Of a stretch of DNA of 64,000 nucleotides, positions 1,498-29,290 are shown piece by piece. A program made the translations under genes and the position numbers. The stretch spans positions 432,001 to 496,000 of the forward strand of contig WPIO01000138.1 in assembly GCA_009760855.2 (NCBI GenBank), in the 5' to 3' direction. A model generated the notes under the pieces. It did no database searches. It was not told the origin of the DNA and was given only the letters and a program-made list of their open reading frames with translations. How positions within the stretch are numbered: the stretch's first letter is position 1; the number at the start of each line of letters is the position of its first letter. Origin of the DNA: Cristatella mucedo. Taxonomy: Eukaryota; Bryozoa; Phylactolaemata; Cristatellidae.

Positions 1498-2086
1498 ATG
1501 AACTTCCTGTACGTTACGGTAGCACTCGCCCTTCTAATGGGAAGAGTGGCTCCTGAGGTGCGATTACGATGAAAACTCGTTGCTGCCGACGATTCATAAG
1601 AATGCTCATTTTCCATGCTTCTCGCTCGTTTTTAATGGCCTCGTCCGAAGGATGGAGCTGATCATTTTTTTTCATTATAGGCAACTCAGAATGAAGATGA
1701 AGTTAGCCGCGAGGTTGAAGCTGAGCTGTTGAATGTGTTGGACGGTAGGTTGGCGCCAGATCTAGCGTATAGCGAGCTTCTACAGATGCCGCTGCGGGAA
1801 TTCTAGCAGCCGCTTTGGCTTAGGACGATCAACGACTAGAGTCAAAGTTGCATTTTCGCACGCGAGATTTTTCGCCTTGGCTTGCATTTAATGAATTCTA
1901 CCCGCCTTTTTCGCTGGTTCAGCTGATGAGACAGAGAAGCGGTTCCTCGGAGCACTACTTAAGCCCATCGTTAAAACCGTCCTGAAGGTGGTGATCGGTA
2001 CGGCGGTTAAAAGCGCGGCCAAGACCGTGGCAAAAGGAGCTGTAAAACAAACCGTGAAATGCGCCTATGGTTCAGAAAACTGCTAA
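1498..2086 (+). CDS. secreted cationic peptide precursor, copy 1 (antimicrobial-peptide-like)
   Basis: There are three coding exons: 1498-1557, 1681-1744 and 1923-2086. The introns are GT-AG (1558-1680, phase 0; 1745-1922, phase 1) and the protein is 95 residues. Residues 1-20 (MNFLYVT start) form a hydrophobic signal peptide. Residues 21-48 are a propiece with about ten Asp/Glu, ending in the dibasic site Glu-Lys-Arg (46-48). The predicted mature part is residues 49-95, with eight Lys spaced every three to four residues among Val, Ala, Leu and Ile, which suits a cationic amphipathic helix. It ends with Cys88 and Cys95 (CX6C). The layout matches secreted antimicrobial or cytolytic precursors such as those of ranid frogs; this is architecture, not demonstrated homology, and I do not recognise the family. 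The ATG is the first in the exon and is preceded by a splice acceptor. Alternatives are a venom or neuroendocrine peptide. Confidence 0.82.
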
Positions 2087-2140
2087 TGAAAACGTAAGCA
2101 TGAACACATCATGTTCGCTGCTTGATATTGTTATTCAAAC

Positions 2141-2146
2141 AATAAA
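2141..2146 (+). terminator. poly(A) signal, peptide gene copy 1
   Basis: AATAAA lies 55 bases after the stop codon, in the context AATAAAGTTTGC that is also found after copy 3. It is degraded to AATAAT in broken copy 2. Confidence 0.75.
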
Positions 2147-2159
2147 GTTTGCGTACTTC

Positions 2160-3469
2160 TGCAATAGTTTTTTCAACGAATTGTGGCAAGCGGGCAATAG
2201 ACGCAGATGTCCTAATGTGATGTGCTGATTACGCAATGTTCGGCAGCGTAGATTTCGCTACGAGTCGCCACTATATAATGAACGAAGTGGGTCCTGCTTT
2301 GAGATCGCCAGATAATCGCAGATGCATTTATTGCTACGAAGCTTTGAGAGTTGTGAGCAACATTAGAATGTTCTTTAAGCTTTAGCTGTGGTGAGGGAAA
2401 CCACCACCAGACTTTTTCCAACGGCACTGACATCACGACGATGTAAAATGAACCGCATTAGCTTGAATAGCCGACAGAGTTACAGGTTTGCCATATTTGC
2501 GAAAAGCTTGCATGGAAAAACTCCTTGCCAAGTTCCTTCTCGTATCCAGTCAGCAGGTAACAACGGTCTCCTATTTCAGTCCTATATCTAGTGATCAGCG
2601 CTAAGCTCTGACTAAGAGGGCTGAGAAAAAGCCGCCGAAAGAAAGTAACGACACAGTCAGAAACGGCCAAGGGTGCCGGAACAAGGGTGCTTGCAATTTA
2701 TGATTTCTGTCACCAACAACAGAAGCAGTATAAACTGTCGCGTGTAAACCGTAATCATGGCTATGCAAGCCATGTCGCGCCTTTAGGAAACCATGTCGCG
2801 TAAGCAACGTAAGTGGTACCATGAGTATGACGCCAGAGACTCCAGTGCCTTTTTAACATCTTGAGGGATACGTAGGGGGCTGTGGTTTAAATTTCACCAA
2901 CTCACTATGATTAAGACAGTTGCAGCTCCCTGATGATTAGCTATTTTATAACATGCATAAAAATGAGAAAATATCACGTTAAAATAATATCGGAAGGATT
3001 GCTTGTCTCCATAACAGTTCTCCGTCTAGGTACGTTTAACACGGTCGAGAAAATCCGGCCAACTGGAAAATACCGATCCAAAACGTCATATTGAGTACGC
3101 CCTCAGGGAGAACTCGCAGGAACCAATAAAATGCACGAGGAGCGCATAGATTATACCCTTTATTTTATTATCCCCAAATTGAGGCGTTCACTAGTGACTT
3201 ATAGGCTTTGGGTACCTTAATAAGGGCCGCTAAAATGCGACTGCAGAATTTGCCTCCGTGCGAGTCTAAATCCTTAACAAATACAACGCGATCACATTGT
3301 GAAAGAAGTGATTGTTTTTCTACCATAAACCAGGTCTAGGTTAACCCCAGAGATGGCAGTTTTTAATCAAGCTTCCTGAAAAAAATGTTACTTTCTACAA
3401 TATTTGGATAGTGTCGTGAAAGCCTAGATGAAAGGAATGAAGACGAGGAATATAGAATCATCCGTGTGA
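2160..3469. other. 3' flank of unit 1, no gene seen
   Basis: Non-coding flank, homologous by eye to 7280-7555 joined to 16256-17250 of unit 2. Its first few hundred bases also match the flank of copy 3 at 29360-29600. The overlapping small open frames here are not conserved between units. Confidence 0.6.
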
Positions 3470-4412
3470 GCCTCTCATCTTGCCCAGGCATCGCTGGCAC
3501 TGCACTGCAACGACTCCGATTCTTTTTCAATTGAATACACTAGAGCCTTATTAAGAACAAAAAAAGAGTATCTTGAAGAACCATTGGAGTAGAGGGCACC
3601 TCAGGGCTCTCTGTTCTCGTTCCTCTTGATTTCACTGCCTCTGCACTCTCCGTATCGCCGATGCAACCGCCAATCGCAGTCAGGACTTCCACATTTAAGC
3701 AATCGACACTCAGTTTTACCTTTACTTCGATTGCCCACAGCCTAATGGTCCATTAATTTGTGTCATACTCTCTCAACTTCTGCAACTCGCCGCTTGATGG
3801 TCGATTGGCATTAGCATACTTGGGTTTGCAGTTTTGCTGAACTCTCCAGCTAGGCTCGTCTTTCTTGGGTGTCGCAGTTGCCACACCACAACCCTTCTCT
3901 CTTACCCGAGTCTGCTCACAAAAAAGCTGCGTGTCGCCTTCAAGGTCCTGTAACTAACTTTTAGTTTCCTTCATTCATTGGCTCCAGCCACGTATCAGAT
4001 CTACTCCCCATCAGGCATCGTACTACCCACTTTTAGGAATCTAACTGCTTACCTATAACTCGTAAAACCCTCAACTCCCTCCCGACCTGCATCAGAACAT
4101 CCCCTGACCTGACCACATTTAAAAGAAACTTAAAAACATACCTATTTAGGACAGCATTTAGTGGGTCCTTGTGATTCGTCCTTGATGTGCTTATGCGTGC
4201 TGACACTGTTCATGCTGCCACTAACCACATTTGCATGCTGACCCAGTGCATGTAACCCCTAACCATGTTATTCATTTTGTTTGTTTTTCAAGCATGATTT
4301 TACTTACTATTCTATTGCGTATCACTTTGCAGCAAATGTAAAGCGCCTAGAAAGAGATTAAGTTCTCTGAGGGCGCTTTATCAAGTGCAATATTATTATT
4401 ATTATTATTATT
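3470..4412 (+). mobile_element. decayed LINE-A remnant (CR1/L2-like), part of duplicated unit
   Basis: Fragments of the reverse transcriptase and the C-terminal domain can be recognised, with many stops. The 3' end has the family stem-loop (AAAGCGCC / GGCGCTTT), then TATCAAGTGC and (ATT)n. A similar remnant occupies the same relative place in unit 2 (17250-18320), so it was present before the tandem duplication. Confidence 0.75.
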
Positions 4413-4540
4413 ATAAATTATTTGGAGACCGTGGCTTTAGTTCGTGTGCTCTCAAAGCACGGTTACACCGTCAACATTACTTTGATGAAATATACGTCGT
4501 CAATGTACGAAATACATGAACACACACGCAACATGAAACA

Positions 4541-4542
<2 letters not shown>

Positions 4543-4579
<37 letters not shown>

Positions 4580-4618
4580 TATATATATAATATATATATA
4601 TATATATAATATTATATA
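4543..4618. repeat. (TA)n microsatellite
   Basis: About 76 bases of alternating TA with two or three single-base interruptions, between the LINE remnant of unit 1 and the start of unit 2. Confidence 0.95.
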
Positions 4619-5013
4619 AAGGGTTTTCACTTACTTTCGCATCATTTCGTATTCTTGTTCAAGCCTAAATATCAAAACTACTGCTCGAGTAAGATAAGCG
4701 CCGTAAGCCAACGTTCGAACTAAAGTCATTTAGCTATCCATTGCGAGTCTCAAACTTTAAAGACCATGCCTTTCGTGAATAAACTTTTGAGTTACTTTTA
4801 ACTAGTCAGAAGTATTTCTAATCTCACTAAAGTGAGAAGACTTGCTGTCGCTTGGTCGAATGGCTACCCAGCAATACCGATCGGTATTTAAGTATCGGCC
4901 AGTTGTCCGTCGTGCTCGTGAGTAGCTTGCTTTGAAGCCCGTTCGCATGCGGGCTCTGACTGCCACATTAGAGCTGTCGCTCCTACGTGGAATATGACTG
5001 CTAGGGGTATGAC

Positions 5014-6088
5014 CTTTGCTTTGATCCCTCCCAGCCTTCGAGCACCTCAAATTCTCTAAACTCACTTGCTGCATGCATTGATGACATCCGCACATGGAAG
5101 GCAGCAAATTTTCTAAAACTAAACGATGATACAACTAACTTACTAGTTATGGGCAAACCCAGTGTGATTCAGAAATTGGAAAGGCTGACTCTCAAAATTG
5201 GCTCTGCCAGCATATCTCCAGTTGAATCAGCTCGAAATCTAGGTGTCATATTCAAAAGCGACCTCTCGTTAGACGACCATATCAGCTCCACAGTCAAATC
5301 CGCCTATTTTCAGCTTCATAACATTGCTAAAATTAGGGCTTGTTTATATAAGGATACCACGTCCAAGTTGGTTCATGCATTCGTGACATCCCGTCTCGAC
5401 TTCTGCAACTCACTGCTTACTGGCCTACCAGCATGTGCGATCAGGCGATTGCAGCTTGTGCAAAACTCTGCAGCTAGGCTTGTCTGTCGTGACGGTCCCA
5501 GTTGCCACATTACTCCACTTCTCGCCGACCTGCACTGGCTACCAGTCAAGCAACGGATTGACTTCAAGGTTTTGTCGCTCACTTTTAGGTCTCTTCATTC
5601 TATGGCTCCAGCCTATCTGTCAGATTTACTACCCCATCAGGCCAAGCATCGTACCACCCGCTTTTCGGAATCCAACAGTCTAGAAATATCTCATACAAAC
5701 CCTATATCCTTTGAAGACCGTGCATTTAGCTCGTATGCTCCCAAAGCCTGGAACTCCCTCCCGGCTTGCGTCAGAACATCCCCTGTCCTGACCACATTTA
5801 AAAGAAACTTAAAACACGCCTATTAGGACAGCATTTAGTGGGTCCCTGTGATTCGTCCTTGATGTGCTTATGCGTGCTGACACTGTGCATGCTGCCACTA
5901 ACCACATTTGCATGCTGACCCTGTGCATGTCACTCCTAACCATATTATTCATTTTGTTTGTTTTTCAAGCATGATTTTACTTACTATTCTATTGCGTATC
6001 ACTTTGCAGCAAATGTAAAGCGCCTAGAAAGAGATTAAGTTCTCTGAGGGCGCTTTATCAAGTGCATTATTATTATTATTATTATGAC
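5014..6088 (+). mobile_element. 5'-truncated LINE-A inserted in the promoter region of copy 2
   Basis: A non-LTR retrotransposon 3' fragment of about 1.07 kb. An open frame at 5149-5826 (225 residues) encodes the end of the reverse transcriptase and the C-terminal region typical of CR1/L2-like elements (HAFVTSRLDFCNSL, HWLPVKQRIDFKVL, WNSLPACVR). The 3' end carries a stem-loop (6017-6056) and an (ATT)n tail. It is flanked by TATGAC at 5008-5013 and 6083-6088, a likely target-site duplication. Units 1 and 3 lack the insertion at this point. The insertion starts about 1.2 kb upstream of the copy-2 TATA box and ends about 100 bases before it. Confidence 0.85.
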
Positions 6089-6196: not shown

Positions 6197-6611
6197 CATG
6201 TTGGCGCCTACAGCAGGAAAATAGCACGGTGATGATAGATGTAAATACTTTCAGGAATGTATGTTGTCGTTTTTGCTTAGAGGCACATCAATTTGTAATT
6301 AAGCCTTCATTTGAAAATTGCTGCTAAGAAATTCCTTGCTTGGGTTGCAAGCAGGCATGCTAGAAAGCCTCAACGAACCTGTAAGGCTGATGCCTTAGCA
6401 TTTCGTTTATCGTGCCTAACCTTCTGCTTCCGAATGTCGCACAGCACCTCGAAACCGAGCAGTCCAGCAAGGTTTTACATCGCTTAGGAAGCTTCGTACT
6501 AATTGTGAATAGGTACACACATTAAAGTCGGCATGGAACCAGCTTTATGAGAAGGTGAATCGCGTTCAGCACTTTGTATCGCGTCCATCTCCTTTAATTT
6601 CCATGTGAACT

Positions 6612-7217
6612 ATGAGCTCGCTGTTCGTCACGGAAGCAGTCGCCCTTCTAATGACATTGGTAGCATCTGAGATAGAGTTACGTGAACCACCCGTTGCAGT
6701 CTACAGTTCAGTAAAAATGCTCTTTTCCATGCTTCATGCTCATGTGACTGGCGCCATCTACGGAATGAAGCTAGGCGTTTTCTTTTAAAATAGGCAACCC
6801 GAAGCGATGATGAAGTTAGCCGCAAGGTTGAAGCTGAGCTGAAGAATTTGTTCGACGGTAACTTTCGGCTTGCACCAGCGAGCACAGAGTTTTTAAAGTT
6901 TATCACCACTGCCTAAATTTGAGCAGCCCCGTTTGCTTATGACGAAGAATCACCTCGAGTCAAACGGCGTTTTCGCTAACGAGATTTTTCACCATGACTT
7001 TCCTGTAAAGGATCCTAACCACATCCTTCGGTTTTTTTCTGCTGTCGAGGCGGAGGAGCGGCTCTTTAAGCGGATAACAAAGACCCTAACATCGAGCGCC
7101 ATAGCGGTGGAAACGAGTTTGGTGGCTAAAAGTATTGGTAAGGCCGTGATCGGAGGAGCTACAGCGATTTTAATTCAATGTGCTATTAATACGGAAAACT
7201 GCCCCTTAATAGGTTAA
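6612..7217 (+). pseudogene. broken secreted cationic peptide gene, copy 2
   Basis: Exon equivalents are 6612-6671, 6794-6857 and 7042-7217, with the same lengths and phases as copies 1 and 3. Several signals are lost. The 5'-UTR acceptor AG is gone, the first donor is AT instead of GT at 6672, the exon-3 acceptor reads CTG instead of CAG at 7039-7041, and the poly(A) signal is AATAAT. The signal peptide has an acidic residue in its hydrophobic core. The Glu-Lys-Arg site is altered, although a Lys-Arg occurs a few residues later. The CX6C loop is still present but followed by four extra residues. Exon 2 keeps the acidic propiece and both its splice sites. Most likely a decaying paralogue. Confidence 0.75.
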
Positions 7218-7555
7218 AGCGAAAGCTTCGTGCTCTCCTCTAATATTGTAGTTCATTCAATAATGTTTCGTTCACTTACATTGGGTTACTGTGCAAACCA
7301 CAGAAAGCAGACGATAGGTTCATATTTCTCGATTTGTTGTGGTAATTACGATCTGTGTGGCAGTGCTGATCTTGTTGCGAGGCGCCGTCGTTCCGTTAAA
7401 TGAAGCGGCTCCTGCTGTGAGATCGCCAGGCAATCGTAGATATGTTTGTTGCTGCTAAGTTTCAAGAGCCGCTAGTAACATTTTGCTGCTTTTGCAGCTT
7501 TACCTGTGGTGAGAGAACCACCTCGAAACCGTTTCCGACGGCACTGACATCAAGG
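7218..7555. other. 3' flank of copy 2, no gene seen
   Basis: Homologous to the 3' flank of copy 1. It stops abruptly at the gypsy element and resumes at 16256. Confidence 0.6.
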
Positions 7556-7952
7556 TGTAGCACTTTGCTGGCCTTGGCTGAATTTTAGCGCGAACAAGAG
7601 CTGTTCGGAGGCGAGCTAGAACTCCTTTGTCCTGGAGCAGTGAGCCAGAGAGGAGCGTCAGCGCGGTTAGAGAGCAAGAGCTTAAGAGCAAGCCAGGAAG
7701 CTGAGACCGGCGGTGGCGATTCGGCCTTTAGAATTGGTCCGATACCCGCGGAAGCTGCTGATTGATGTTGGCTAGCCTGTCAACCTCCGCCTTCACTCGG
7801 TCCAAGAAAGAATCGTCTGGAACCCATTCGCCATTCAAGCTGGACAGAGGGGACATTCCAGTGGCCTAGTGCCGGTATTAGTTCCTTACAGTAATGGGCC
7901 ATGGTGTCTGGGCCCAATACCACTAAGCTCTTGCCCCATTGTCTCAGCCAAG

Positions 7953-7959
7953 TATTTAA
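7953..7959 (+). promoter_or_regulatory. TATA-like box of the 5' LTR
   Basis: TATTTAA, repeated at 15339-15345 in the 3' LTR and present in both solo LTRs. It is the likely core promoter, which would put the start of the R region near 7985. Confidence 0.55.
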
Positions 7960-8110
7960 GAGTCGAGCGACGCTCGCTCTGGGTCTTTTTGTCTGTGGTC
8001 TTCTCTCTTTGGTCCGGCTCCGCCGTCGGACTCGTTTTCTCTGGAAGCGAGGGAGGAGGGCGGGCTGTCCGCCGACGATGGACGGAACAAGACGAGAAAG
8101 CGCTAGGAGG

Positions 8111-8132
8111 ATTCGGTGGAACCCCACCGAAT
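8111..8132 (+). other. conserved 9-bp hairpin in LTR leader
   Basis: ATTCGGTGG, a 4-base loop, then CCACCGAAT, a perfect inverted repeat. The same stem occurs at 15497-15518, at 38391-38411 (3-base loop) and, on the other strand, at 46555-46576. It lies downstream of the TATA-like box, so it would be in the RNA leader. Confidence 0.6.
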
Positions 8133-8276
8133 ACGGTCGTATCGCGCCCGAGCTGGCATTTTGTGTGTTCTTTCGTGTTTTGTGTTTCTTTTGTGTCGTG
8201 AGTGTGCGCGCTAGCACGTGGTCTCGGCATAGGGATTTGCCGGCGCGAGCTAGGCGTAGTTGGCGTGTGTGGAGCT

Positions 8277-8600
8277 CTAGTTCACCGGGTAGGGTTTAGG
8301 CTCCGGGTCGCGCTTCAGTGTGGAGAAGTATTTCCTCCGCAGGAGTGCTTGAGTTGGCGTGTGTGGAGTATTCCGGTCGCACTGGTGGAAACCGAGTTCT
8401 AGTTCACCGGGCAGGGTTTAGACTCCGGTTCGCACTTCAGTGTGGAGAAGTACTCCCTCCGCTCGAGTGTTTAAGTTGGCGTGTTTGGGGTATTCCCTCG
8501 GCACAGGTGGGAACGGATTCCTAGTTCACCGGTTAGGGTTTAGGGTCCGGGTCGCGCTTAGTGTAGAGGAGTATTCCCTCCGCAAGAGTGTTGAACGTGC
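8277..8600 (+). repeat. tandem repeats of 122 bases inside the LTR
   Basis: Two full units (8277-8398, 8399-8520) and a partial third, each starting CTAGTTCACCGG. The 3' LTR has the same array. The solo LTRs carry longer units (about 160-166 bases), which explains their greater length. Confidence 0.85.
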
Positions 8601-8654
8601 GAGGAGTGTGGAGATAAAGCTGAACTAGACGCGCAGCGACTTTGTGCGCTTGCG

Positions 8655-8660
8655 AATAAA
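8655..8660 (+). terminator. poly(A) signal in 5' LTR
   Basis: AATAAA, repeated at 16041-16046 in the 3' LTR. It marks the likely end of the R region. Confidence 0.6.
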
Positions 8661-8855
8661 GTTCAGTAAAATCCCCAATTTGTGTGTCTTGCTTCCAATT
8701 CACGCCGCGGACTCACGACCCCCTTTAGTAACGGTAAGCAGGTCAGCGCCAGAAACGCTCGTTTCGTGGCGCACCGAACGGCATTAGGCGATAGGCTACG
8801 CCGCTAGGTAAGCGGCAGGTCAAGCTTACCCCGCCGAGCCTTCGGCGTTACATAT

Positions 8856-8873
8856 TGGCGCCCGAACGGGGAC
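8856..8873 (+). other. primer-binding site, Lys-tRNA type
   Basis: TGGCGCCCGAACGGGGAC lies four bases after the 5' LTR. It differs at one position from the well-known primer-binding site complementary to tRNA-Lys3. Confidence 0.85.
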
Positions 8874-9045
8874 TTGTCAAATTGCAGGTAGGATCCTAGG
8901 ACGAGAAATTCCGCAGGAGGCGGCTTGCTTGAGTAGGTCTCCTGAATTAGACTTGTAGGCGTGTAAATTGGATCGAGCAAAAGAGTGTCGTTTTAACCTG
9001 AGAGGTAGGGACGTGTACCTGGGCCAACCAGGGAAAACGCCCGAG

Positions 9046-10130
9046 ATGAGCCAGTCTTGGCAGCAAGAAGTGGGAGGTAGGAGCGGTGGCGCTGGTGCTA
9101 GTGAAGCGCTTAACGTTGCGATTTTGATGGAATGTCTGGAAATGATGACGGCAGAGGTAGCACAGCTGAAGGCTAGTGTCGAAGCGCATGCTCGGCAGCA
9201 GCCGCTGCCCCCTCAGGCAGCACCAGAAATTGCGTTTCCGCCATATGTTCTCGCAGAGTTTGCTGGTTGCAACTCTCAGAACATTGTGCCGAGTTTCTCC
9301 GGCGAAAAGCCTGAATCCGTGGTCCGGTGGCTGAAGGAGTATAAATTGCAGGCGTGGAGCCTCAGCTGGGGTGACTCCATTAAATGTCGCCGCTTAGGTT
9401 CGCACCTAGAAGGGCGGGCGCTCGACGTTTTCGAAGAAGCGCAGCAAGCGGCCGGCGCCAGTTTCTCTTTGGTCCTGGCAGAAGCGGCGCTGATGAAGGC
9501 ATTCGCTACGGGTTTCTGGCAGGATGCCGCGCGTGCGCGCCTGCAGACTCGCGTGCAGAAAAGAGACGAAACTGTTTTCGCCTTCTATCGGGATCTCCGC
9601 GACGAAGCAGAGTTTGCCTATTGGGACCTTCCACCCGACAGCTGTAGCAGCACGATATCGTCTCTCTCTTTGTAAATGGCCTGCAGCCGAATCTCAGGTC
9701 CTATGTTTTCGCGAGCAACCCTCGCGACGTAAGGGAGGCGCTAGATTTCGCCATTAGATGCGAAAATACGCCATTCATATCGGGATCGTCAGCCGTCTTG
9801 GCCACAGCGAGCGTGCAGACTTTGAAACCAGATATTAGCGGTTTTCGAGGTGAGGTACCTGATCTTGGAAATCAGGGGGTCAACCTAAACTACGGTGTGA
9901 CGCAACCGCAGCAAGCGGCTGACGTACCCGCCCAGCCCAGAAAAATACCGACCCATGGAATTTTGACTCCCGAGAGGAAGCCGTCTACGCAGAATGACGA
10001 CATTTCATGGTCTAAACCTCGACGACCGGGACATCTTGCCACTTCGCGAAGTGGCTCGCGATCAAAGGAAGGCGCCAGAGGCAGAAATGGGGCCGGCGTT
10101 TTCAATTGCAAAACTCGTATGAGTTTTAGT
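9046..10130 (+). pseudogene. gag-like gene, frameshifted
   Basis: The first part (ATG 9046 to stop 9675, frame 1) reads as a capsid-type protein, with EKPESVVRWLKEYKL and RDETVFAFYRDLRDEAEFAYW resembling retrotransposon gag. The reading continues in frame 3 (VNGLQPNLRSYVF, then REALDFAIRCE), so a small indel lies near 9640-9660. No CCHC zinc knuckle is visible before the protease, which is unusual for gypsy gag. A programmed frameshift is possible, but the overlap falls inside the capsid-like region, which argues for mutation. Confidence 0.75.
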
Positions 10131-11501
10131 GCTCTAGTCCCGGCCCTTAAGGTAGACCAACCTGTCTCCAACCATCGTATGACGGTGCGGGCCCTACTGA
10201 ACGGTGCAACGACCACAGCGCTCATAGACTCGGGGGCCGATATATCTCTCTTGACGTTAGAGACCGCTAAACTGATAGGACTGCAATTTTCGTGCACCGC
10301 AATGACAGCGTCTGGCGTAGAAGGTTCGCGGCTGGAGATTCTGGGCAGCGCGTCAGTACGGATCCAGTTAGGAACAGTACATCGTGTGCATCGCATTTAC
10401 GTCGCCCGAAATTCTACATATCCGCTGCTGCTAGGCACCGACTTCCTGGCGAAGCTCGGTCCGGTCACCTTTGACATTAAGAAGCGGGCAGTGTTGATAG
10501 GAGATGAACGCCTTGAGCTGGTGGGGGCCCAGGTGTCACGGAGGCGGAGGCGGCGGCTCACAGTGAGGACGCAAACTCCGGTTGAGGTTGGGCCCGCCTC
10601 TGAACATTTAATTCGCTGTTTGGTCGACTGGGATAGTAGTAGGAAACCCGTGGCCGGGGAGTATCTGTTCGAGCCACATTATGAAAAGCTCGGCAAACGG
10701 AATTTGTCGGCCGCACGTGCACTCATCTGTGCTAACGGTCCAGGTATTCCAGTGCGCATTGTTAATGCCACTAATCGACCAGTACTCTTGCCGGCTGGCA
10801 TGAAAATTGGGTGCCTAGACCATGCACGCGCTGCCGAAGTCTGCACGCCAGCTAACCCGGGTAAGTGCAACGGTGCCGCGGAATGCACCAGTTCGGTAAG
10901 ACCCCGAGTGGGATTGCCCAAAGTAGAGAGACGCGTAGCATCAGTGTCCAGGGAGAGTGTGACACGACAACAGTCGATAGACTTCGATCTCACTGAGGCG
11001 AATCTCTCTGTTGCCGAAAAGAAGGAGTTGCTATCTCTATTGCAAAGCTACGAGAATATCTTTGCCGTGGAGAATCTCGAGTTAGGGGAAATGAGAGGGG
11101 TGAATCACACTATTGACGTTGGTTCGGCGAGGCCGATAAAAGTAAGGCCATACCCCGTACCTCATTCGCTCAAGCCCGAGGTTTCGCGTCAGTTGGATGA
11201 GATGCTGGAGAAAGGGGTGATCGAGCCGGCCAACTCGCCATGGTCCAGCCCGGTCGTTTTAGTTAAGAAGAAGGATGGTTCGTATCGGTTTTGCGTGGAC
11301 TACCGAAAGCTAAACGCAGTGACCATTAAAGACAGCTATCCCTTGCCCAGGCCAGATGAGGTGTGCCAATTGCTGGGCGGCGAAAAGTATTTCAGCACGC
11401 TGGATTTAGCCTCCGGTTATTGGCAAATACCCATGCATCCCAATGATAAAGCGAAGACCGCGTTTCAACGTATCGGGGTCAGTTTCAATTCAGGAAAATG
11501 A
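10131..11501 (+). pseudogene. pol: protease and N-terminal reverse transcriptase
   Basis: In the same frame as the end of gag. The aspartic protease active site is IDSGADISLL (Asp codon at 10227). The RT begins with the gypsy hallmarks EKGVIEPANSPWSSPVVLVK, RFCVDYRKLN and STLDLASGYWQI. The frame ends at 11501 because of a single-base change of frame near 11470-11485, just before the FGLCNAP block, which is readable in the next frame. This is part of one gag-pol product in intact relatives. Confidence 0.88.
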
Positions 11502-11536
11502 GCTTCGGTCTGTGCAATGCCCCTGGCACTTTTTAA

Positions 11537-12894
11537 CGAGCCATGGATCTCTGCTTGTCGAACTTGCAGTGGGAAACCTGCTTGATTTATATCGATGATT
11601 TATTAATATTCTCGCGAAACTTTGAAGAGCATCTTGAGCGCTTAACACAGGTGCTTGATCGACTGCAACAGCACGGATTGAAGTTAAAGCCTTCCAAATG
11701 CCACTTCGCACAGCCACAGGTACGCTACCTCGGACATGTTTTGTCGGCTGAAGGAATGCAGCCAGACCCTGACAACATCGCTAAGGTAAGAGATTACCCT
11801 CTCCCTAGGAATGTGTCGGCAATCCGACAGTTCCTAGGGTTAGCCTCTTACTACCGTAAGTTTATTGCAGGTTTTGCGACTATTGCCGCTCCACTAAACA
11901 AGTTACTACGCAAGGGAGAGGATTTTAAATGGTCGCCAGAGTGTGACGAAGCGTTTGTGGAATTACGCCAACGTCTTAGCTCGACGCCCATCTTAATTTT
12001 TCCCGATTTTGAGTTACCATTCTGTCTCAGCACTGATGCGAGTGGAGTAGCTCTAGGTGCCGTACTTAGTCAGGTACGCGAAGGGAAGGAACATCCCGTA
12101 GCATACTTTAGCCGAACACTGAATAAGAGTGAGAGAAATTATTCAACCATCGAGAGAGAAGCGCTAGCAGTACTCGCCTCGGTGCGGCATTTTCGCTGCT
12201 ACGTGTACGGGAAGCCTGTAAAGGTGTATTGCGACCACCAACCATTGTCGTGGGTGCTCAAAGGAACACCCGACTCAACTAGGCTCATAAAATGGGGTCT
12301 CGCACTCCAGGAGTATTGCCTGGAAATAGTCTACCGACCTGGAAAGGCCAACACAAATGCTGACGCACTTTCACGTCTAGATCCTCCAGAGGATGCCCGG
12401 ATCAACGCAGCGGTGGCGGCCCATGCAGATCCTGAGTTCATTGCCCAAGCACAGGGCAGGGATCCCCTCCTCGAGTCTATAATTCTGTCTTTGAGTGGCC
12501 AGTCAATTGCTGATCGGCCGCCAGAACATAAGAGATATATCGGCACACAGTCTGGGACGTTCGCGTTGCACACGAATGGCTGTCTCTACAGGATTGTTCC
12601 TGGGCGAAGGGGCAGACAGCTGGTTATCCCGACTTCCCTAAGGGAAGAGATACTAAAGGAGTGCCACGATGGCCTGTTCGGTGCCCACTTAGGTTCTCAG
12701 CCAACACTGAGTAAGATACAGGATAAGTACTTCTGGCCCGATATGGCGAAACAGGTGAATGACTGGGTGAAGACATGTGTGGCATGTCACTCGCGAAAAC
12801 CCCCATCGAAGCACCTGAGGGTACCTTTGCGTAGCATACCCGTGGAACGGCCATTTCAAAGGGTGGCCATGGACGTTGTGGGCCCCTTACCTGT
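11537..12894 (+). pseudogene. pol: C-terminal reverse transcriptase, RNase H, N-terminal integrase
   Basis: The frame is open after a premature stop at 11534-11536. It includes the RT catalytic motif YIDD (11588-11599), the FLGLASYYRKFI block, RNase H (STDASGVALGAVLSQ, then YCDHQPLSW), and the integrase zinc finger (HX6H, then CVAC). The last recognisable part is MDVVGPLP, with the first catalytic Asp of integrase. The frame is then interrupted by the solo LTR at 12895. Confidence 0.9.
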
Positions 12895-13629
12895 TGTAAC
12901 CGGGATCCAGGGGTCAAAGGCTATTTCCCGCCAAACCCCGCCATACTCCGGCCACGCTGCCGCTCGCCATGCCGCCGAGCTAGGGTAAGACGAGCGGCCG
13001 TCCGGTTAAACCTCTATATTAACGCATGCGCCAACAACAACAGAGCAACTAAACAAGTCTACAGGGAGGGTCCTATACACAGTACACTACGGGGGCGCAA
13101 GGCGACGCAGCAAGCGCGAACAAACGTGTCAGTTGGGGTCAGTCGGCTTCTGCAGTCCTGTCGTTGTACCGACTCCGAATCCAACAGTACGAGCGTACGC
13201 CGTCCAAAACCCGGCTGGCTGAGTAACTGCTGGCTAGTCCGAGTCAACAACTACCACAGTCGTAAGCTTCCACCGAAAGACGCCAACACACGGGGGGTCA
13301 CGAACACACTACACGAGGGGAACGCGGTATAAACAAGTCAACAACGAGCGAGCTATCCAGCTCAGCTCGGGCCTTGGGTACTAGTTCCCTTGCGTGCGTG
13401 GCAGCATCGCCGGAGCACGCCTGCACGAATCCAGGTGCATAACTCGGCGAGACCGGGAGCCTCCAACACCACGACTTACTTGGCCAACTTCCCGTACCCA
13501 AGAGCCCCGGTGACCCGACGTCACCGCATACATCCGGCCATGCCTTAGGGTCCGACCCCGGCCTAGCCGGTGACCCTAACCCTCACTAAAGCCGTCCGGT
13601 CCCAGCCAACCGAACCCAGCCTGGGTACA
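12895..13629. mobile_element. solo LTR of an unrelated element, nested in integrase
   Basis: A 735-base non-coding block begins TGTAACC and ends GGTACA. CTGT flanks it on both sides (12891-12894 and 13630-13633). Removing it with one CTGT copy brings the integrase frame together exactly. TG...CA ends plus a 4-base target duplication are the signature of a solo LTR. Its body shows no resemblance to the host element's LTR. I see no gene in it. Orientation is undetermined. Confidence 0.8.
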
Positions 13630-13633
13630 CTGT

Positions 13634-14702
13634 TACGAAGGCAGGCAATCGATACCTGCTTGTCATGAGTGATTACCTAACCAAGTGGCCCGAGGTTAGG
13701 GCGATACCTGACCAGAAGGCCATGACGTGTGCGACAGCCTTCGTGGAAGACATCGTGTCTCGACATGGGGTTCCGGAGGAGATCCTTTCTGACCGAGGAC
13801 CTAATTTCATGTCGAGGTTGGTAGAGCGAGTCTGCAGGTTGCTAAGTATTAACCAACTTCGAACGTCTCCTTACCACCCCGAAACAGATGGTTTAGTCGA
13901 ACGGTTCAACCGCACCTTGATCGAGATGCTGTCAATGTTCGTAAGTAGCCGACAGGACGACTGGGATACGTACGTACCGTATGTGTTACTCGCATATCGT
14001 ACGAGTGTGCATGAGTCCATTAATTGCACACCGTTTCATATGATGCATGGTCGAGAGGCCCGCCTCCCGATTGACCTGGTTCTCCCTGTCGACAGCGAAC
14101 CGGCGGCAACTGAGGAAGATTATGCACGGGCGGTCCACGACCGACTGCTCGATGCGTGGAACGCTGCCCGTGCAGCCAACCAAGCCGCCCAAGCGCGGCA
14201 GAAACTGCAGTACGACCGGGGTGCCAGGCAAACGACGCTCAAGGAGGGCGATCACGTCTACATTTTCACACCGAAGCCACGTCGTGGAAGGACGCCTAAG
14301 TTACAGCATCTTTGGCATGGCCCTTTCCGTATAAAGTCGCGTACTGAAACAAATTTTCTTGTTGTAGATGAGGACAACGGCAAGGAGCAGTTTGTACACA
14401 TCAACCGGTGCAAACCTGCGTGGATACGCCCGTCACCTCTCTACGCACATGAAAACCCACCGGAGGCTTCGACCATAGTGGAGGACGAACCGCGAACCGA
14501 AGACCTGGCTACTTCAACCAGAACCACATCCGAGGCTATGGACGTACCTCCTCCTGAGGAGCATACAATTGCTGGCGGCCCCATCGTCGCTCCTGACGAG
14601 AGGAGCGGAGAAGCAAACACGCCAGTTACAACGGAGCGATTGTCTCATTATGAACTGAGAGCCCCGCATGAACGGCGACCTAGCGCGCGGCTTCAGCTCT
14701 AG
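13634..14702 (+). pseudogene. pol: integrase core and C-terminal domain
   Basis: It continues the integrase after the nested insertion (first ATG 13665). The second catalytic Asp is in LSDRGPNF and the Glu in TDGLVERFNRT, completing the DDE triad. The GPY/F-type module is visible as LWHGPFRIKSRTETNF. The last 100 or so residues are a low-complexity acidic tail; no chromodomain is seen. The stop is at 14700-14702. Confidence 0.9.
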
Positions 14703-14942: not shown

Positions 14943-16255
14943 TGTAGCACTTTGCTGGCCTTGGCTGAATTTTAGCGCGAACAAGAGCTATTCGGAGGCG
15001 AGCTAGAACTCCTTTGTCCTGGAGCAGTGAGCCAGAGAGGAGCGTCAGCGCGGTTAGAGAGCAAGAGCTTAAGAGCAAGCCAGGAAGCTGAGACCGGCGG
15101 TGGCGATTCGGCCTTTAGAATTGGTCCGATACCCGCGGAAGCTGCTGATTGATGTTGGCTAGCCTGTCAACCTCCGCCTTCACTCGGTCCAAGAAAGAAT
15201 CGTCTGGAACCCATTCGCCATTCAAGCTGGACAGAGGGGACATTCCAGTGGCCTAGTGCCGGTATTAGTTCCTTACAGTAATGGGCCATGGTGTCGGGCC
15301 CAATACCACTAAGCTCTTGCCCCATTGTCTCAGCCAAGTATTTAAGAGTCGAGCGACGCTCGCTCTGGGTCTTTTTGTCTGTGGTCTTCTCTCTTTGGTC
15401 CGGCTCCGCCGTCGGACTCGTTTTCTCTGGAAGCGAGGGAGGAGGGCGGGCTGTCCGCCGAAGATGGACGGAACAAGACGAGAAAGCGCTAGGAGGATTC
15501 GGTGGAACCCCACCGAATACGGTCGTATCGCGCCCGAGCTGGCATTTTGTGTGTTCTTTCGTGTTTTGTGTTTCTTTTGTGTCGTGAGTGTACGCGCTAG
15601 CACGTGGTCTCGGCATAGGGATTTGCCGGCGCGAGCTAGGCGTAGTTGGCGTGTGTGGAGCTCTAGTTCACCGGGTAGGGTTTAGGCTCCGGGTCGCGCT
15701 TCAGTGTGGAGAAGTATTTCCTCCGCAGGAGTGCTTGAGTTGGCGTGTGTGGAGTATTCCGGTCGCACTGGTGGAAACCGAGTTCTAGTTCACCGGGCAG
15801 GGTTTAGACTCCGGTTCGCACTTCAGTGTGGAGAAGTACTCCCTCCGCTCGAGTGTTTAAGTTGGCGTGTTTGGGGTATTCCCTCGGCACAGGTGGGAAC
15901 GGATTCCTAGTTCACCGGTTAGGGTTTAGGGTCCGGGTCGCGCTTAGTGTAGAGGAGTATTCCCTCCGCAAGAGTGTTGAACGTGCGAGGAGTGTGGAGA
16001 TAAAGCTGAACTAGACGCGCAGCGACTTTGTGCGCTTGCGAATAAAGTTCAGTAAAATCCCCAATTTGTGTGTCTTGCTTCCAATTCACGCCGCGGACCC
16101 CCTTTAGTAACGGTAAGCAGGTCAGCGCCAGAAGCGCTCGTTTCGTGGCGGCCAGCTTATTGCGCGTAGGCGCGCACCGAACGGCATTAGGCGATAGGCT
16201 ACGCCGCTAGGTAAGCGGCAGGTCAAGCTTACCCCGCCGAGCCTTCGGCGTTACA
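14943..16255 (+). repeat. 3' LTR of gypsy element
   Basis: 1313 bases, almost identical to the 5' LTR. It lacks 8 bases near the AATAAA end and has about 24 extra bases (CGGCCAGCTTATTG...) shared with the solo LTRs. It ends GTTACA and is followed by the AAGG target copy. Confidence 0.93.
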
Positions 16256-17249
16256 AAGGGTATGCAGAATGAATCGCCTCAGCTTGAATAGCCGATAAGC
16301 TTATAGGTTTGCCATACGTGGGAAGAGCTCGCACAGAAACGTTTACTGCCAAGCTCTTTCTCTTATTGAGTAAGCAGGTAATAGCATTCTCTAATTTATT
16401 TACTAGGTCGAATAATTTTAATATCTAGTGATCAGTGCTAAGCAGCGACTAAGGGGAATGATGAAAAAATCTCTGAAAGGAAGTACGAATGCAGTCAGAG
16501 ACGGCATAGGATGCCAAAATGAGGATGCTAGCAATTTTTTTATCTCAGTCGCCAACAACTGAAATACTAGGAACTGTCGTGCGTAACCGTAATTACTTTC
16601 ATATGGGCCATTTCGTGCCTTAAGCAAAGCATGTCACCTAAGTCACGTGATTAGTAACAGACGAGGGACACTAGAGATCGACGTCCTAACATCTTGACGG
16701 ACGCACAGGGAGCCGAGGATTGATTTTCATCCACTCACTGCGAATACAAGAGTTGCATTTTCTTGCTGAGTGGCTAATTTACAACGTGAATGAATGAGAG
16801 AACAGCTCGTCAAAAAAGTAAGACAGCTATCGTTTTGTGCCACTACAGAACTAAATCTCATTCCTGGAAACTTGAACATGATCGAAACAAGCCGGTCAAT
16901 CAATAGCTAGTCATTCACAACGTAAGCTTGCATACGAGTAAACGGATAATTAAAGCGGATGGAGCAAATTCTGCGATGAACGCATTGTAATCTCTTTTGG
17001 AATATCCTCATGCCGAGACGATCAGCAGTGACTTCTAAGATTTCAGAACCTTTGATGGGACACTAGAAATGAGACTGCCGACATCATCTATACATGTATT
17101 AAAATACCTAATAAATACAAATACCATGCCATCCGATGTAGGATGAAGCACTCGGTCTGCTCCCTGAACCCCAGGTCTAGCTGAAGTTCTGAGATGTTGA
17201 TCCGAGTTGTGCTTTTAAAGTCAAAGCGAGAAGAATTAAGACAAGAAAT
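16256..17249. other. 3' flank of unit 2, resumed after the gypsy element
   Basis: Homologous to about 2433-3460 of unit 1, for example GCTTGAATAGCCGA and CTAGTGATCAG. No gene seen. Confidence 0.65.
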
Positions 17250-18320: not shown

Positions 18321-19175
18321 ATAGACATTCTAAAAGCAGCGGCACAATCTCTGTGCCACAGCATGTGGTGGGTTGCACTCCGTTGCACTTCTTGCACTCC
18401 GTTTTCAGGAGCCGATCAGCCCTCCTAGTAAAAGCCCGAGTGCACTCGGAGACAGGCTGGTCCTTAACCGTCTCCATCACAGGTATTTTTCGAGTATTAT
18501 ATCGGAAAGGTTTCTTCTTTATTGTCAGTGTCCCAGCAATCTCAAGGTTGCCAACCTTCTCTAGACGGTTAGACCATAGATGGACCTTAACACAATCTGT
18601 AAGACGACATCCCTTAGCCGTAGCTGCTAGTAGTGCACTCTCGTATTGATGCGGTCTGCCTGCTGCGGCTAAGGTCGGTGGGTGGCGGCAGAAATTCTGT
18701 GTCATAGCCCACCAAGACTACCTACACGTTCTATTCGACAAATAAAGTCTGGAAGTGCTACACGGAGGGAGTTAGGCACGTTTAAAAGTACAAATGCTCT
18801 ACAAGTTATCTCTACTATCGGGTGTTTCTACCGTTATTATTTTGTACCGAGCCAGTCGGTGAGCAGAGTAAAATTTCCCACCCAGCCACCGAAATCCGAA
18901 AGGGCAACCGGCCATCGGTACTAGAGTCATCCGATTGCTAAGAGGGATCGTCATTTAGGCCTACTTGCTCGTTTCCCGGGTAGAGCGTTCAGAAGTCCTC
19001 CTGAGCAAAACTTTACAGACCAAAGCCCTGTTATCGACGACTAATAAAGGACACAACGTATTCGTTAGTGTTTACCATCAATTTACAGTGGTACCAACCG
19101 CTATAGGGTGGGATGCATCGATCCTACTCACAGCAGACCAAGTGAGGCCGAACTTATGGCCCATAGTTAGTATAT

Positions 19176-19312
<137 letters not shown>

Positions 19313-19753
19313 AATTATACTCGCTTTAAAATATGCAATATTTTGCTTGGTATATAAACCATGCATATCGCGATTATCAATTCGTGCTGCTACTCGTCTC
19401 TTGTTCTCCACCAATGCCAGACAAAGATTGAAATGGAGTCTATCGACCATAACATATGGGTAACGTGCTTGGTTTTTTCTATACCAATCATTGGAGCCAC
19501 GAGCACATGGCGTGGCTTGGGTCAGGGAAAAGCTGGCGGTGAGAAGCAAGCGATTTCATTATGGAGAACCCGTATATTTTGTTTCCCTTTAATCTTGACT
19601 TTGATCACGATCGTGGACAGTGAACAAGCTCCTCATTGGCTGAAAGCATTTTTTTATCCGCTAAATATCACGGGAGGATGCCATGGACACCATTTTAGCT
19701 CTTGTAAATAGCAATAATTTTTTAACTAGATAAGCTGCCGATAGCCAGAATTC

Positions 19754-25430: not shown

Positions 25431-25964
25431 CCATCTTTAAAAGAATTTGGTGGACAAATGAGGTCCCTATGTTAAAGGCGTGGCACTAGCCCTTCGTGGC
25501 TTAGGTGTCTCAATTGCTCATAAAAGCCTTGTTTTCACCGTCACGGAAATTCCGGGAATGGCGATATTCAAATGTATTAAACTGTCGTATCTTTGGCTTG
25601 CATTACTGGAAAGTGTGTATGCGTATCAGGGCAATGTTTAATTCAGCCCTCCATTTTATATGGGGTTTCGCGTAAGCATTTTGAGTATTGCCTGTATCTA
25701 AGCTCAAGCGGTTTCGCAATTTCATCCTTTCACAAATCGGCATCCAATTCAACGATGCGGGTGCTGTCTAGCGAAGCAGCTGGATACTCACCACCAGCTT
25801 CTCTTTGCTTCAAAGGCTGGTATTCTAGCGGCATGGAAGCTGAGCTCGGGGAAGACCAAGGACGATGTGCCGATGGTACAAAACCACTGGTAAACACCCT
25901 ACACCACTGCATCATGGACACCGAGACAGCGAGGCGATTGGCACCACTTAATGACAGCAATAAT
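25431..25964. other. spacer, no gene seen
   Basis: A 128-codon open frame at 25593-25979 overlaps the following LINE tail and has no recognisable domain. Confidence 0.4.
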
Positions 25965-27415
25965 CATAATAATATATAATATGGCATTTGATATAGCCCC
26001 CATTGAGACCTCAAACTTTTTTAGGCACTTTATATTGCTGCAAAGGATGCACGATGAAATGCTTAGTGGTAGCACGCTCAGTAGACAACAGAAATATCAA
26101 GGTTAGGGGTGACATGCACAGGATCAGCATGCAAGTTTGGTTAGTGGTAGCATGCACAGTTTCATCACTCAAAAGGAAATTAAAGACGATTCACGTGGAC
26201 CCACTAAATGCTGTTAAAATAGATGCGTTTTTAGTTGCCTTTTAAAAGTGGACAAGTCAGGAGATATCGTGACGCAAGTCGGAAGTGAGTTCCAGGCTTT
26301 GAGAGCGCACGAGCTGAAGGCACGGACTCCAGAGGATTTGATTTTTGTATGAGGTGTGGGAAAACAGTTAGATTCCTAAAATCTGGTGGTACGATGCTTA
26401 GCTAGGTTTGAGAGTATATCTGACAGGTGGCTGGAGCCAAAGAATGAAATTACATAAAAGTGAGTGACAAAACCGTGAAGTCGATGCGTCGCTTGACTGG
26501 GAGCCAGTGCACGTCGGTGAGAAGTGGTGTGATGTGGCAACTGCAACGCCCACGACAGACAAGTCTAGCTGCAAAGGTTTGCACAAGCAGTAAGCCCCTG
26601 AATGCATACGCATCTAGACCAGCAAACAGTGAGTTAGGGAAGGCAAGACGGAATATCACAAACTGTCGACCAATTTAGATTAGGTATTCCTGCCTAAGCG
26701 AACCCGAATTTCAGCAATACTATGTAGCTGAAAGTAGGTAGACTTGACTGTGAAGCTGATGCGGTCGTCTAATGAAAGGTCACTTTGGATCGCGATACCT
26801 AGATTTCGTACAGATTCAACAGGAGATATTCTGACAGCCGAGTAATGAGCGTTAGCCTTTCCAATTTCCGAATGACACTTGGTTCGTCCATAATTAGTAA
26901 GTTGATTTTATCATCATTTAATTTAAAGAAGTTTGCTGCCGTCCATGTGCGGATTTTATCAATACTCGCAGCAAGGGAGTTGAGAAAAGTTTACGTGCTG
27001 GAAGGATGAGAGGGGTCCACGCTAACGTACTACTGGGTGTCATCTGCATAGAAGTGAAAGCCTAGAGTTTGCTTGGAAATCACATCGGCAAGAGGGAGAC
27101 TATGAACGGTGAAAAGAATGGGACCAAGCACAGATCTCTGATGTACGCCATATTTCAGAGGTTCATCGGATGATCTTTGTCCATTTACATCAATACTCTG
27201 GATTCTTCCACTGAGATGGTACATGAACTAGTGCAATGCAGTGTCAGTGATGTCCTGGCGAGACGAGAGACCCTCTAAAAGGGCTTAGTGATCGATTGTA
27301 TCGAAATCTGCCGAAAAATCAAGCAAGACAAGCGGAGATACTTGACCTAAGTCCAACAAACGGTTGCACTTGGAAATCGAAAGCTAAGAGTTGGAGTTTC
27401 GCTGGAATATCAATC
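25965..27415 (-). mobile_element. LINE-A fragment with reverse transcriptase remnants
   Basis: Minus-strand LINE-A from its (AAT)n end to the reverse transcriptase. The translated minus strand shows LPLADVI and FHFYADDTQ, with the catalytic YADD intact in a short open piece, plus C-terminal parts (LLVQTFAARLVCR). It has many frameshifts and stops. Confidence 0.82.
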
Positions 27416-27984
27416 ACCTAGAAGACTTGCAGACTGTCATTCGATGAGTGGCTTTGGCGATAACTGATTGTCGGTACATATGTACGAGTTTTGTGTACGG
27501 ATACGTCTAGGGTGTTATAAACTGCAGTACAGTATTTATAGACCACGTGGTAGCTGTGTGAATATGGATGTACGTGTATATGTACAAATATATCTACACA
27601 TATAAACATATGCATGTACAAGTATATATTAAATCGTGAACAATACTTGGTAAATTGAGATTTTTACGTGATTGATCAAGTTTATAAGTTCTTATGCAGG
27701 GGCAAATGATAGCTTAGGCTGCACGTGGGAACATCACTGTCAGTAATTCTACGATATCACGACTTTGTAGAATCTAAATTAAATACCTTAGCCGTACGTT
27801 ACGTATGAGGTAGTGTGACCCAAAGTGAAGAAATGAGAAGCTGAGTGACTTTGGAGGATTGGTACGATCTTAAGGAAGCAGCGATAAACATCTTGTTGAA
27901 TTAATCACATTATACCGCGAATTAACAAATATCGCATTGCTGTTTTAAAACTGCAACGTGGTTTACACAACATTGATTCAACGG
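27416..27984. other. spacer, no gene seen
   Basis: AT-rich non-coding sequence between a LINE and unit 3. Confidence 0.45.
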
Positions 27985-28230
27985 AGAGTTACATTTTCAG
28001 CTAGTCGGCCGTCGCACTGAGGCCAAGCTTGCTTTGACACCAATATACATTCGAAGGTAAATTCGCCAGGCGTCGATCGCCAAACCGTCGCGGTCGATCG
28101 TACGTGGAGTATGACTCATAGGGAGCCATGCGTTACCTCTCTCGCATCCTCACCCGCATACATTCTTACACGCTTCGATGGCGTGAGGGAGACGCTCGAC
28201 CTCATTGGTCAGCCATCGGGTTTGTGGGCA

Positions 28231-28298
28231 TATAAACAAGTCCGCACCTGCAGCAGGCAGAAAAGCACGGAGAAGATTCTTGCAGCAAATACATTCAC
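28231..28298 (+). promoter_or_regulatory. TATA box and non-coding first exon, peptide gene copy 3
   Basis: TATAAA at 28231-28236, then the conserved CACCTGCAGCAGG and AGCACGG motifs. The leader exon ends at CAC|GTATGT (donor 28299). The acceptor TTTCCTTTACAG ends at 28687, seven bases before the ATG. Confidence 0.68.
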
Positions 28299-28694
28299 GT
28301 ATGTCGTTTGTAGTTTCTGCTCCGAGGCGTATCGGCTGGTGATTAGCGTTCATTCCTTTAATTTGACTGAGAGATTCTTAGCCCTGGTCGCTAGCAGGCA
28401 CACTATAGGTCCGAAACCCACCTGGAAGCCAAAGGCACTCACGTGCTGTTTAGCTTCCCCCACCCGGCTTCTGAGTTTCACGAAACACCTCACGGTGGAG
28501 AAGGCCTGCAAGCTATTTGAGAGCTTTGGAAGCTTTGCACACGGCACGAATGGATGCTCAACTTCCACGTTGCCCTTCATTTGATGCATTAGTTGTCGCT
28601 GGCATTTCGCCTCAGCGCTAGGGTCTGCATGAAAAAGTCACTCGCGCTCTGGTATATACTTCGCTGCTCACATGATTTCCTTTACAGGTGAACC

Positions 28695-29290
28695 ATGAAC
28701 TTCCTGTACGTTACTATAGCACTCGCTGTTCTGATGGGAAAAGTGGCTCCTGAGGTAGGATTGCCAAGCAGTTGCAGCAGACCAGTCGTGCAAAAGATTC
28801 TTTTCCATACTTAATGCTCGTGTTAATAGCATCCTCCGACATGTAAAGCCGTCGCTTTCTCTTCATCACAGGCAGCTCAGAACGACGATGAGATTAGCCG
28901 CGAGATTGAGGCTGAACTGGGCAAGATATTCCTTGGTAAGTTTTCGCTCGCACCAGAGACCAGCGAGCTCCGAATGCCGCTGCTGCTGACACTCGAACAG
29001 TAGCTACTATCCGAGCCTTCAGGCTTCAACTCGAGCTGCAGCTGCGTTTTCGCACGCGAGATCTTTTGCTTTGACTTGCATTTACTGATTCCTCGACGCA
29101 TCCTTCGGTCCTTTCAGATGATAAGGCAGAGAAGCGGTTCATCGGTTTGATAGTCGGATTATTGAGACCTGTGCTATCCATCGGGGCTAAAGCGCTGGCG
29201 AAAACAGTGCTTAAAAACGTAGTCAAGGCCGGGGCCAAAGCAGCTGCAAAGCAAGCAGTTAAATGTGCGGTCGGTGTGGAAGACTGCTGA
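28695..29290 (+). CDS. secreted cationic peptide precursor, copy 3 (antimicrobial-peptide-like)
   Basis: Three coding exons: 28695-28754, 28872-28935 and 29118-29290. The donors are GTAGGA and GTAAGT, the acceptors CACAG and TTTCAG, and the phases (0, then 1) match copy 1. The protein is 98 residues. The signal peptide (1-20) differs from copy 1 at three conservative positions. The acidic propiece (21-48) ends in Glu-Lys-Arg. The predicted mature peptide (49-98) has one Arg and seven Lys spaced along an Ala/Val/Leu-rich segment, then Cys91 and Cys98 (CX6C) and the stop. All splice sites and the poly(A) signal are intact, so this and copy 1 are the best candidates for expressed genes. An antimicrobial or cytolytic role is inferred from layout and charge only. 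Confidence 0.85.

Follow-up and report, generated by a model that had tools for sequence, protein, structure and literature searches.

We report a family of small genes, each with three coding exons, that probably encodes taxon-restricted, secreted, membrane-active cationic helical peptides serving host defence or a venom or other secretion, as read from the sequences. Three of its members lie on the + strand of the window, by which we mean the whole 64,000-nucleotide (nt) stretch of DNA analysed (positions 432001-496000 of contig C42): the apparently intact copies A (1498-2086) and B (28695-29290), and the broken copy C (6612-7217). Across the 572-Mb assembly we count at least 25 copies, spread over three contigs. 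Of these, 13 are intact and 12 broken, and the intact copies encode seven distinct mature sequences. A preliminary description of this DNA listed three loci and thus understated the scale; to it we add the genome-wide family and, from translations and alignments, a four-residue lysine spacing, a C-terminal Cys-X6-Cys and a mature domain that appears to diverge fast.

Gene structure

Copies A and B are 67% identical across 1,465 aligned bases (E 3e-109) and encode proteins of 95 and 98 residues with a mutual identity of 57%. The coding exons measure 60, 64 and then 164 (A), 173 (B) or 176 nt (C), stop included in the last; these lengths place intron 1 in phase 0 and intron 2 in phase 1. The preliminary description had recognised three homologous same-strand loci, a shared plan of 60, 64 and about 164-176 nt with the same phases, and two intact genes beside a broken one, all of which our comparison bears out. 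The four junctions that it proposed (1557/1681, 1744/1923, 28754/28872 and 28935/29118) carry splice-site sequence: each coding intron of A and B is bounded by GT..AG (123 and 178 nt in A, 117 and 182 nt in B), and so is an intron of ∼390 nt that follows a leader exon in the 5′ untranslated region (UTR) and has its acceptor 7 nt upstream of the ATG. In both genes, the leader exon is followed by an exon for the signal peptide, one for the acidic propiece, and a last one for the Lys-Arg site and the mature peptide. Upstream, a TATA box (ATATAA, invariant in C and in the alignment of the six intact representatives) precedes a short leader block and the donor; downstream of the stop, each of the seven copies aligned has AATAAA. 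Between A and B, exon 1 shows 90% identity (10% different) and the introns 62-64% (36-37% different).

Copy C has lost four splice sites, namely the leader donor (now GA), the leader acceptor (AT), the exon-1 donor (AT) and the exon-3 acceptor (TG); the frame of its last exon is still open. Its homology to A begins right after the end of a long interspersed nuclear element (LINE) and ends at a long terminal repeat (LTR) element. Coordinates for the three copies are collected in Table 1.

Table 1. Features of the three peptide-gene copies in the window (CDS, coding sequence)
Feature	Position	Strand	Basis or remark
TATA box of A, AAATATAAAC	1025..1034	+	ATATAA common to six intact representatives and C
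A leader (5′ UTR) exon	1057..1094	+	conserved block, donor CCAG/GTATGT; start estimated ∼30 nt past the TATA box
A last 7 nt of 5′ UTR and signal-peptide exon (CDS 1498-1557, 60 nt)	1491..1557	+	acceptor AAAG/G, donor GT
A acidic propiece exon, 64 nt	1681..1744	+	AG..GT
A last exon: propiece end, EKR, mature peptide 1943-2083 (47 aa), stop TAA	1923..2086	+	translation
A polyadenylation signal AATAAA	2141..2146	+	common to the seven copies aligned
C signal-exon remnant	6612..6671	+	donor GT to AT; leader donor (6255-6256) and leader acceptor (6603-6604) lost too
C propiece-exon remnant	6794..6857	+	
C last-exon remnant	7042..7217	+	acceptor AG to TG
TATA box of B	28230..28236	+	
B leader (5′ UTR) exon, start estimated	28261..28298	+	donor CAC/GTATGT
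B last 7 nt of 5′ UTR and signal-peptide exon (CDS 28695-28754)	28688..28754	+	
B acidic propiece exon	28872..28935	+	
B last exon: EKR, mature peptide 29138-29287 (50 aa), stop TGA	29118..29290	+	
B polyadenylation signal AATAAA	29345..29350	+	

The predicted precursor and its mature peptide

Six representatives (A, B, D, E, F and H) were analysed, and all show the general layout of a secreted cationic precursor: a signal peptide (judged by eye from the translations) beginning MN(F/S)L, an anionic propiece beginning A(T/A)Q with a net charge of -3 to -7, a basic site, and a mature peptide with a net charge of +4 to +7. All intact copies retain the signal, the propiece and Lys-Arg; the putative cleavage motif is EKR in 12 of the 13 and KKR in H, dibasic throughout, and every intact precursor holds a single peptide with Cys-X6-Cys. 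The mature N-terminus follows (F/I)(L/I/F)(G/K), and the cysteine pair stands near the C-terminus in all six representatives. Past the pair, D, E and F have PLGR or PVGR, and H has VKKLEG. The D peptide ends in QNCPLGR, which matches the oxytocin tail plus an arginine, probably by chance.

The lysines and arginines of the mature peptide keep largely to one register of four residues (8/8 in A and in B, 6/6 in D, 5/6 in F and in H, and 4/6 in E), a bias that differs from random placement at P<0.01 in five representatives, E being weaker (P=0.097). The peak hydrophobic periodicity is 3.87-4.09 residues in all six, at P<=0.005 each by shuffling, with the shuffles run on a coarser angle grid than the observed scan and with tests that are not independent because the peptides are related. 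Since each turn of an ideal alpha helix takes 3.6 residues, a period-4 lysine stripe should wind once round the helix about every 36 residues. At the DNA level, a 12-nt autocorrelation is significant in five of the six copies (the exception is F), and codons four apart match at 0.36-0.64 in positions 1 and 2 and at 0.14-0.34 in position 3. This pattern suggests that the lysine spacing reflects protein constraint rather than fresh repeats, and the low match at third positions rules out a recent 12-bp tandem repeat as its source.

Copy number, arrays and decay

We call a copy intact if it has the coding splice sites, an open frame and both cysteines. The 13 intact copies are A, B and B2 (which encode an identical protein), H on contig C592, three D copies on contig C233, E, and five F copies, among which F5 has a mature sequence unlike the other four; the 12 broken copies are C, F3, G, eight P copies and one truncated copy. 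A genome search with 1.3 kb of copy A gave 25 matches with C counted twice, thus 24 copies including A, and as 24 candidates were scored this number is a lower bound; the truncated 25th copy was found by scanning flanking DNA. The count is likewise a lower bound because a second search with copy F (22 candidates) found no new place and also missed B, B2 and the 25th copy.

At ∼105-153 kb on C42, P and F copies alternate, six of each, at spacings of 8,548-8,646 bases (loci L009, L010, L012, L014-L016 and L021-L026); all six P copies are broken and five of the six F copies are intact, and the alternation at ∼8.6 kb indicates that broken genes were amplified together with intact ones. The three D copies on C233 lie 13.2 kb apart. 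Within arrays, gene segments, which were compared rather than whole repeat units, are 96-100% identical, pointing to recent amplification or conversion; the exception is the post-stop segment of P1-P4, four copies that differ in their first stop and whose segments do not correspond. Decay has taken several forms: P7 has a GC donor, an early stop upstream of the cysteine pair and no Lys-Arg, G and F3 have frame shifts before the cysteine pair with splice sites intact, and the 25th copy lacks exons. Short matches to the 3′ flank of the peptide genes, with no gene attached, occur at 19171-19356 of the window and at loci L031, L032, L044, L046 and L048; the first overlaps a (CA)58 microsatellite, and simple sequence may explain it wholly.

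Divergence and constraint

Measured against all aligned non-coding DNA, the signal and propiece (prepro) part has diverged less at p<0.05 in 8 of 10 pairs (the others being D-G, 0.15, and E-G, 0.17), and the mature part has diverged more in all 10. Against intron 2 plus 90 nt of 3′ UTR, the mature part is more diverged at p<0.05 in six of seven pairs (A-B, p=0.11); between D and E, which differ in mature length by 12 nt (four residues), the mature part is 28.5% different, as compared to 12.9% and 10.1% in intron 2 and 3′ UTR (p=3.8e-5). Synonymous divergence (dS) is lower in the prepro than in the mature part in 15 of 15 pairs, the mature value being saturated in three. The mature part thus seems to have undergone accelerated divergence, with positive selection not proven; a ratio of nonsynonymous to synonymous divergence (dN/dS) above 1 in the mature part was considered and rejected, as one pair of 12 exceeds it.

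Mature DNA differs by 41-50% in the pairs A-B, A-H, B-H and A-D. When the mature part of A was evolved neutrally to 36% divergence (20,000 runs, substitutions only), the frame was kept in 22% of runs, the frame and both cysteines in 2.3%, and the frame with at least six Lys/Arg in one register in 0.2%.

Database searches

The preliminary description knew of no named family with this exon plan, and no named family matched in our searches. Pfam scans of A and B peaked at 13-14 bits against cut-offs of 23-27, reaching no family. Among 5.8 billion proteins, a search with A and B together gave 181 candidates, none at E<=10, and a search with all six members, scoring the 7,993 candidates that shared most words, gave none at E<=1. 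In GTDB genome contigs, 47 pattern stretches were found and none confirmed; none of six family sequence strings is present in the open-access papers searched. Rfam at gathering thresholds gave 0 matches, and 0 tRNAs were found. A profile of the six members against the PDB gave five matches, the best being cupiennin-1a (2k38) at E=0.12, which is not significant, and the second a tumour-necrosis-factor-induced protein at E 0.25.

As a control on the protein searches, the Bicaudal-D (BicD) homologue of the window, described below, gave 2,655 matches, and the named ones among the 120 listed are animals. BicD is long and conserved, so this control shows that animals are covered rather than that a short, fast-evolving peptide would be found. 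From these matches and the BicD tree the host is an animal, probably one with no close relative in the protein database, and the negatives for the peptide family are best read with that in mind.

Comparison with known peptide systems

The nearest design is that of cupiennin 1 from the spider Cupiennius salei, which likewise has a signal, an anionic propeptide and a cationic helix; its hydrophobic N-terminus is followed by a sixfold Lys-initiated four-residue repeat, and seven of nine cupiennin families have a C-terminal Gly for amidation (PMC7889660). The Lys-started repeat is clear in five of our six representatives and weak in E. Cupiennin transcripts, however, carry several peptides with linkers, whereas here there is one peptide per gene, with a cysteine pair and three coding exons. 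The EKR of 12 of the 13 intact copies would fit the cupiennin quadruplet processing motif, which has Arg at -1 and Glu in positions -2 to -4, and the KKR of H would not; all 13 sites may equally be read as dibasic. The BicD matches, as weak evidence, do not place the host among the spiders.

In spider linear peptides, cationic residues often recur at intervals of three or four, and an N-terminal Rana-box-like loop is present in some of these peptides (PMC8290080). Oxyopinin 4, peucetin 4 and ancylometin 1 resemble our family in being cationic, with one disulfide loop and a simple precursor (PMC8290080), but their loop is N-terminal where our cysteine pair is C-terminal. The nearest gene plan is that of the mussel myticalins, which share a first exon confined to 5′ UTR, an intron just upstream of the ATG, a phase-1 intron at the propeptide, a hypervariable mature part, pseudogenes and taxon restriction (PMC5577615). 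Their order is signal, mature peptide, propeptide, in contrast to signal, propiece, mature peptide here, and they are Pro/Arg-rich in place of a lysine at every fourth residue. Hydra arminins and periculins have bipartite charge and paralogue clusters credited to tandem duplication, and both are restricted to the genus Hydra; unlike our peptides, Hydra antimicrobial peptides are described as having complex cysteine patterns (PMC10945409), a comparison by description only.

Going by description only, the family also resembles the frog Rana-box peptides in its predicted helix and C-terminal ring, its acidic propiece and its Lys-Arg. Frog Rana-box peptides such as esculentin and brevinin combine a cationic helix, a C-terminal Cys-X5-Cys ring, an acidic propiece and Lys-Arg, and their ring thus differs in size from the Cys-X6-Cys of our six representatives. 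For brevinin, the C-terminal position of the Rana box is also given in a published abstract. As a further difference from the three coding exons here, antimicrobial peptide genes of the bullfrog range from one to four exons (PMC6365531). With similarity not significant and defining features absent, we assign the peptides to none of the families compared.

The surrounding window

The BicD homologue lies at 58229-64000 on the + strand and runs off the window; PF09730 was matched for one piece. Three exons join in frame to give 835 residues, from GC-rich sequence with Ala/Gly expansions. The top two of the 120 matches listed are odd ones, a brittle-star and a beetle record (66 and 73% identity). 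Molluscs make up most of the other named matches, which also include some annelids, fish, a hemichordate and a brachiopod; identity along the conserved end is 71-87%. When the query was put in a tree with 59 of these 120, it came out close to the base of the mollusc, annelid and brachiopod entries with a branch length of 2.21, and it is flagged for branch length and deviant composition.

A young LTR element at 7556-16255, which we take from its reading frames to be Ty3/gypsy, sits in the downstream flank of copy C with a 4-bp target duplication, AAGG (7552-7555 and 16256-16259); between its two LTRs, 4 of 1,289 aligned sites are mismatched and a further 32 columns are gaps. Two further stretches, 37817-39221 and 45632-47127, resemble, at 81-92% identity, the LTRs at 7556 and 14943, contain 163- or 122-nt tandem units, and are perhaps solo LTRs. 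LINE fragments lie at 5012-6085, 25960-27342, 32763-34157 and 44729-45535, with many copies in the window ∼65-95% alike; their reverse-transcriptase frames are presumably L2/CR1-like.

Interpretation

We infer the following course for the family. A TATA-driven transcript with a short leader exon would yield a precursor whose signal peptide is removed and whose cationic segment is masked by the acidic propiece until a protease, furin-like or otherwise, cleaves behind (Glu)-Lys-Arg. The released peptide of 47-56 residues would fold into a long helix whose lysines mostly recur at every fourth residue, with a Cys-X6-Cys ring at the C-terminus closed by a disulfide; in D, E and F, the Gly-Arg end past the ring would suit C-terminal amidation. 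The lysines would bind anionic membranes, which the helix would disrupt, with killing activity as the presumed outcome. The family would expand by tandem duplication and decay by pseudogenisation while its mature exon diversifies and its prepro part is conserved. The secreted-precursor logic of the preliminary description, with acidic propiece, Lys-Arg site and Lys-rich mature peptide, is upheld by translations and charges; its 'undescribed system' overstates the case, for the precursor logic and the helix design are of a known kind, while the family and its combination of features look new.

In favour of this reading are the coding splice sites, open frame and cysteine pair kept by 13 of the 25 copies, the opposite charges of propiece and mature part, the four-residue periodicity, the cytolytic cupiennin-1a as best PDB profile match, the greater divergence of the mature part, and AlphaFold models that give one helix each for A (3-41 of 47, predicted local distance difference test score (pLDDT) 75.5) and B (2-44 of 50, pLDDT 72.8). 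Several observations weigh against it. The hydrophobic moment at 100 degrees is low (0.06-0.12 over the whole helix), and the best 18-residue moment, 0.38-0.50, exceeds shuffles at p<0.05 in one of six representatives (F); a straight, flat amphipathic helix is not supported. The AlphaFold models were built from two-sequence alignments, which are weak input. The PDB search with A alone gave a best E of 0.71 and no cupiennin, and the profile match to cupiennin may reflect composition. By NG86, mature dN/dS is 0.37-1.19 and below 1 in 11 of the 12 computable pairs (of 15), and prepro dN/dS is 1.0-4.1 among D, E and F, on few changes. Moreover, several pairs have DNA past the UTR that has diverged to the same degree as the mature part (D-E 32.7%, E-F 36.9%), and the B-H UTR, at 47.2%, exceeds the mature part (42.7%); recombination or conversion may therefore cause part of the contrast.

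Within the membrane-active reading, we favour defence over venom. That these are innate-immune antimicrobial peptides of haemocytes or epithelium, tuned to microbes, seems to us nearly an even call: simple one-peptide precursors and multiple pseudogenes are reported for myticalins, the latter as a mark of such families (PMC5577615), and clustered taxon-restricted paralogues for Hydra (PMC10945409), yet NF-kB-type patterns are absent within 1 kb upstream of the 11 copies scanned. Cytolytic toxins of a venom or defensive secretion are a less likely version, sharing the four-residue lysine design of the spider cupiennins and a conserved prepro beside a diverse mature part, as in toxin families such as the conotoxins. 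The family lacks the multi-peptide precursors of cupiennin type, although simple precursors make up 35% of the spider precursors analysed in one study (PMC8290080).

A peptide that acts elsewhere than on membranes, as a receptor ligand, pheromone, structural or nucleic-acid-binding peptide that is Lys-rich by happenstance, would agree with the weak conventional amphipathicity. C-terminal rings and Gly-Arg ends occur in signalling peptides too, a point in the same direction; but the mature sequence varies strongly while charge, spacing and cysteine pair persist, which is unlike a receptor ligand, and we consider such a role improbable. A decayed, repeat-like family whose open frames are chance leftovers would account for the 12 broken copies of 25, for the joint amplification of broken and intact genes, and for close pairs in which exon 1 has diverged about as much as intron 1 (D-E 1.7 versus 1.6%, D-F 10.0 versus 10.5%). 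It is a very remote prospect, given that copies 41-50% apart in mature DNA keep their frame, cysteine pair, charge and mostly their lysine register, and that exon 1 of A and B has changed far less than their introns.

Returning to the membrane-active peptide family, we propose, rather tentatively, that it is a new family in a non-spider lineage that independently evolved a cupiennin-like four-residue lysine helix and joined it to a C-terminal disulfide ring, and whose last exon outpaces its own intron and 3′ UTR while the prepro stays constant, which would make it an orphan defence or secretion gene with focal hypervariation in the manner of conotoxins. If expressed, the family would provide, within a single genome, seven natural mature variants that keep charge, lysine spacing and cysteine pair as the rest changes. 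With them one could test directly how a period-4 lysine helix acts in membranes and how, in an animal, one exon comes to diversify faster than the DNA on either side of it.

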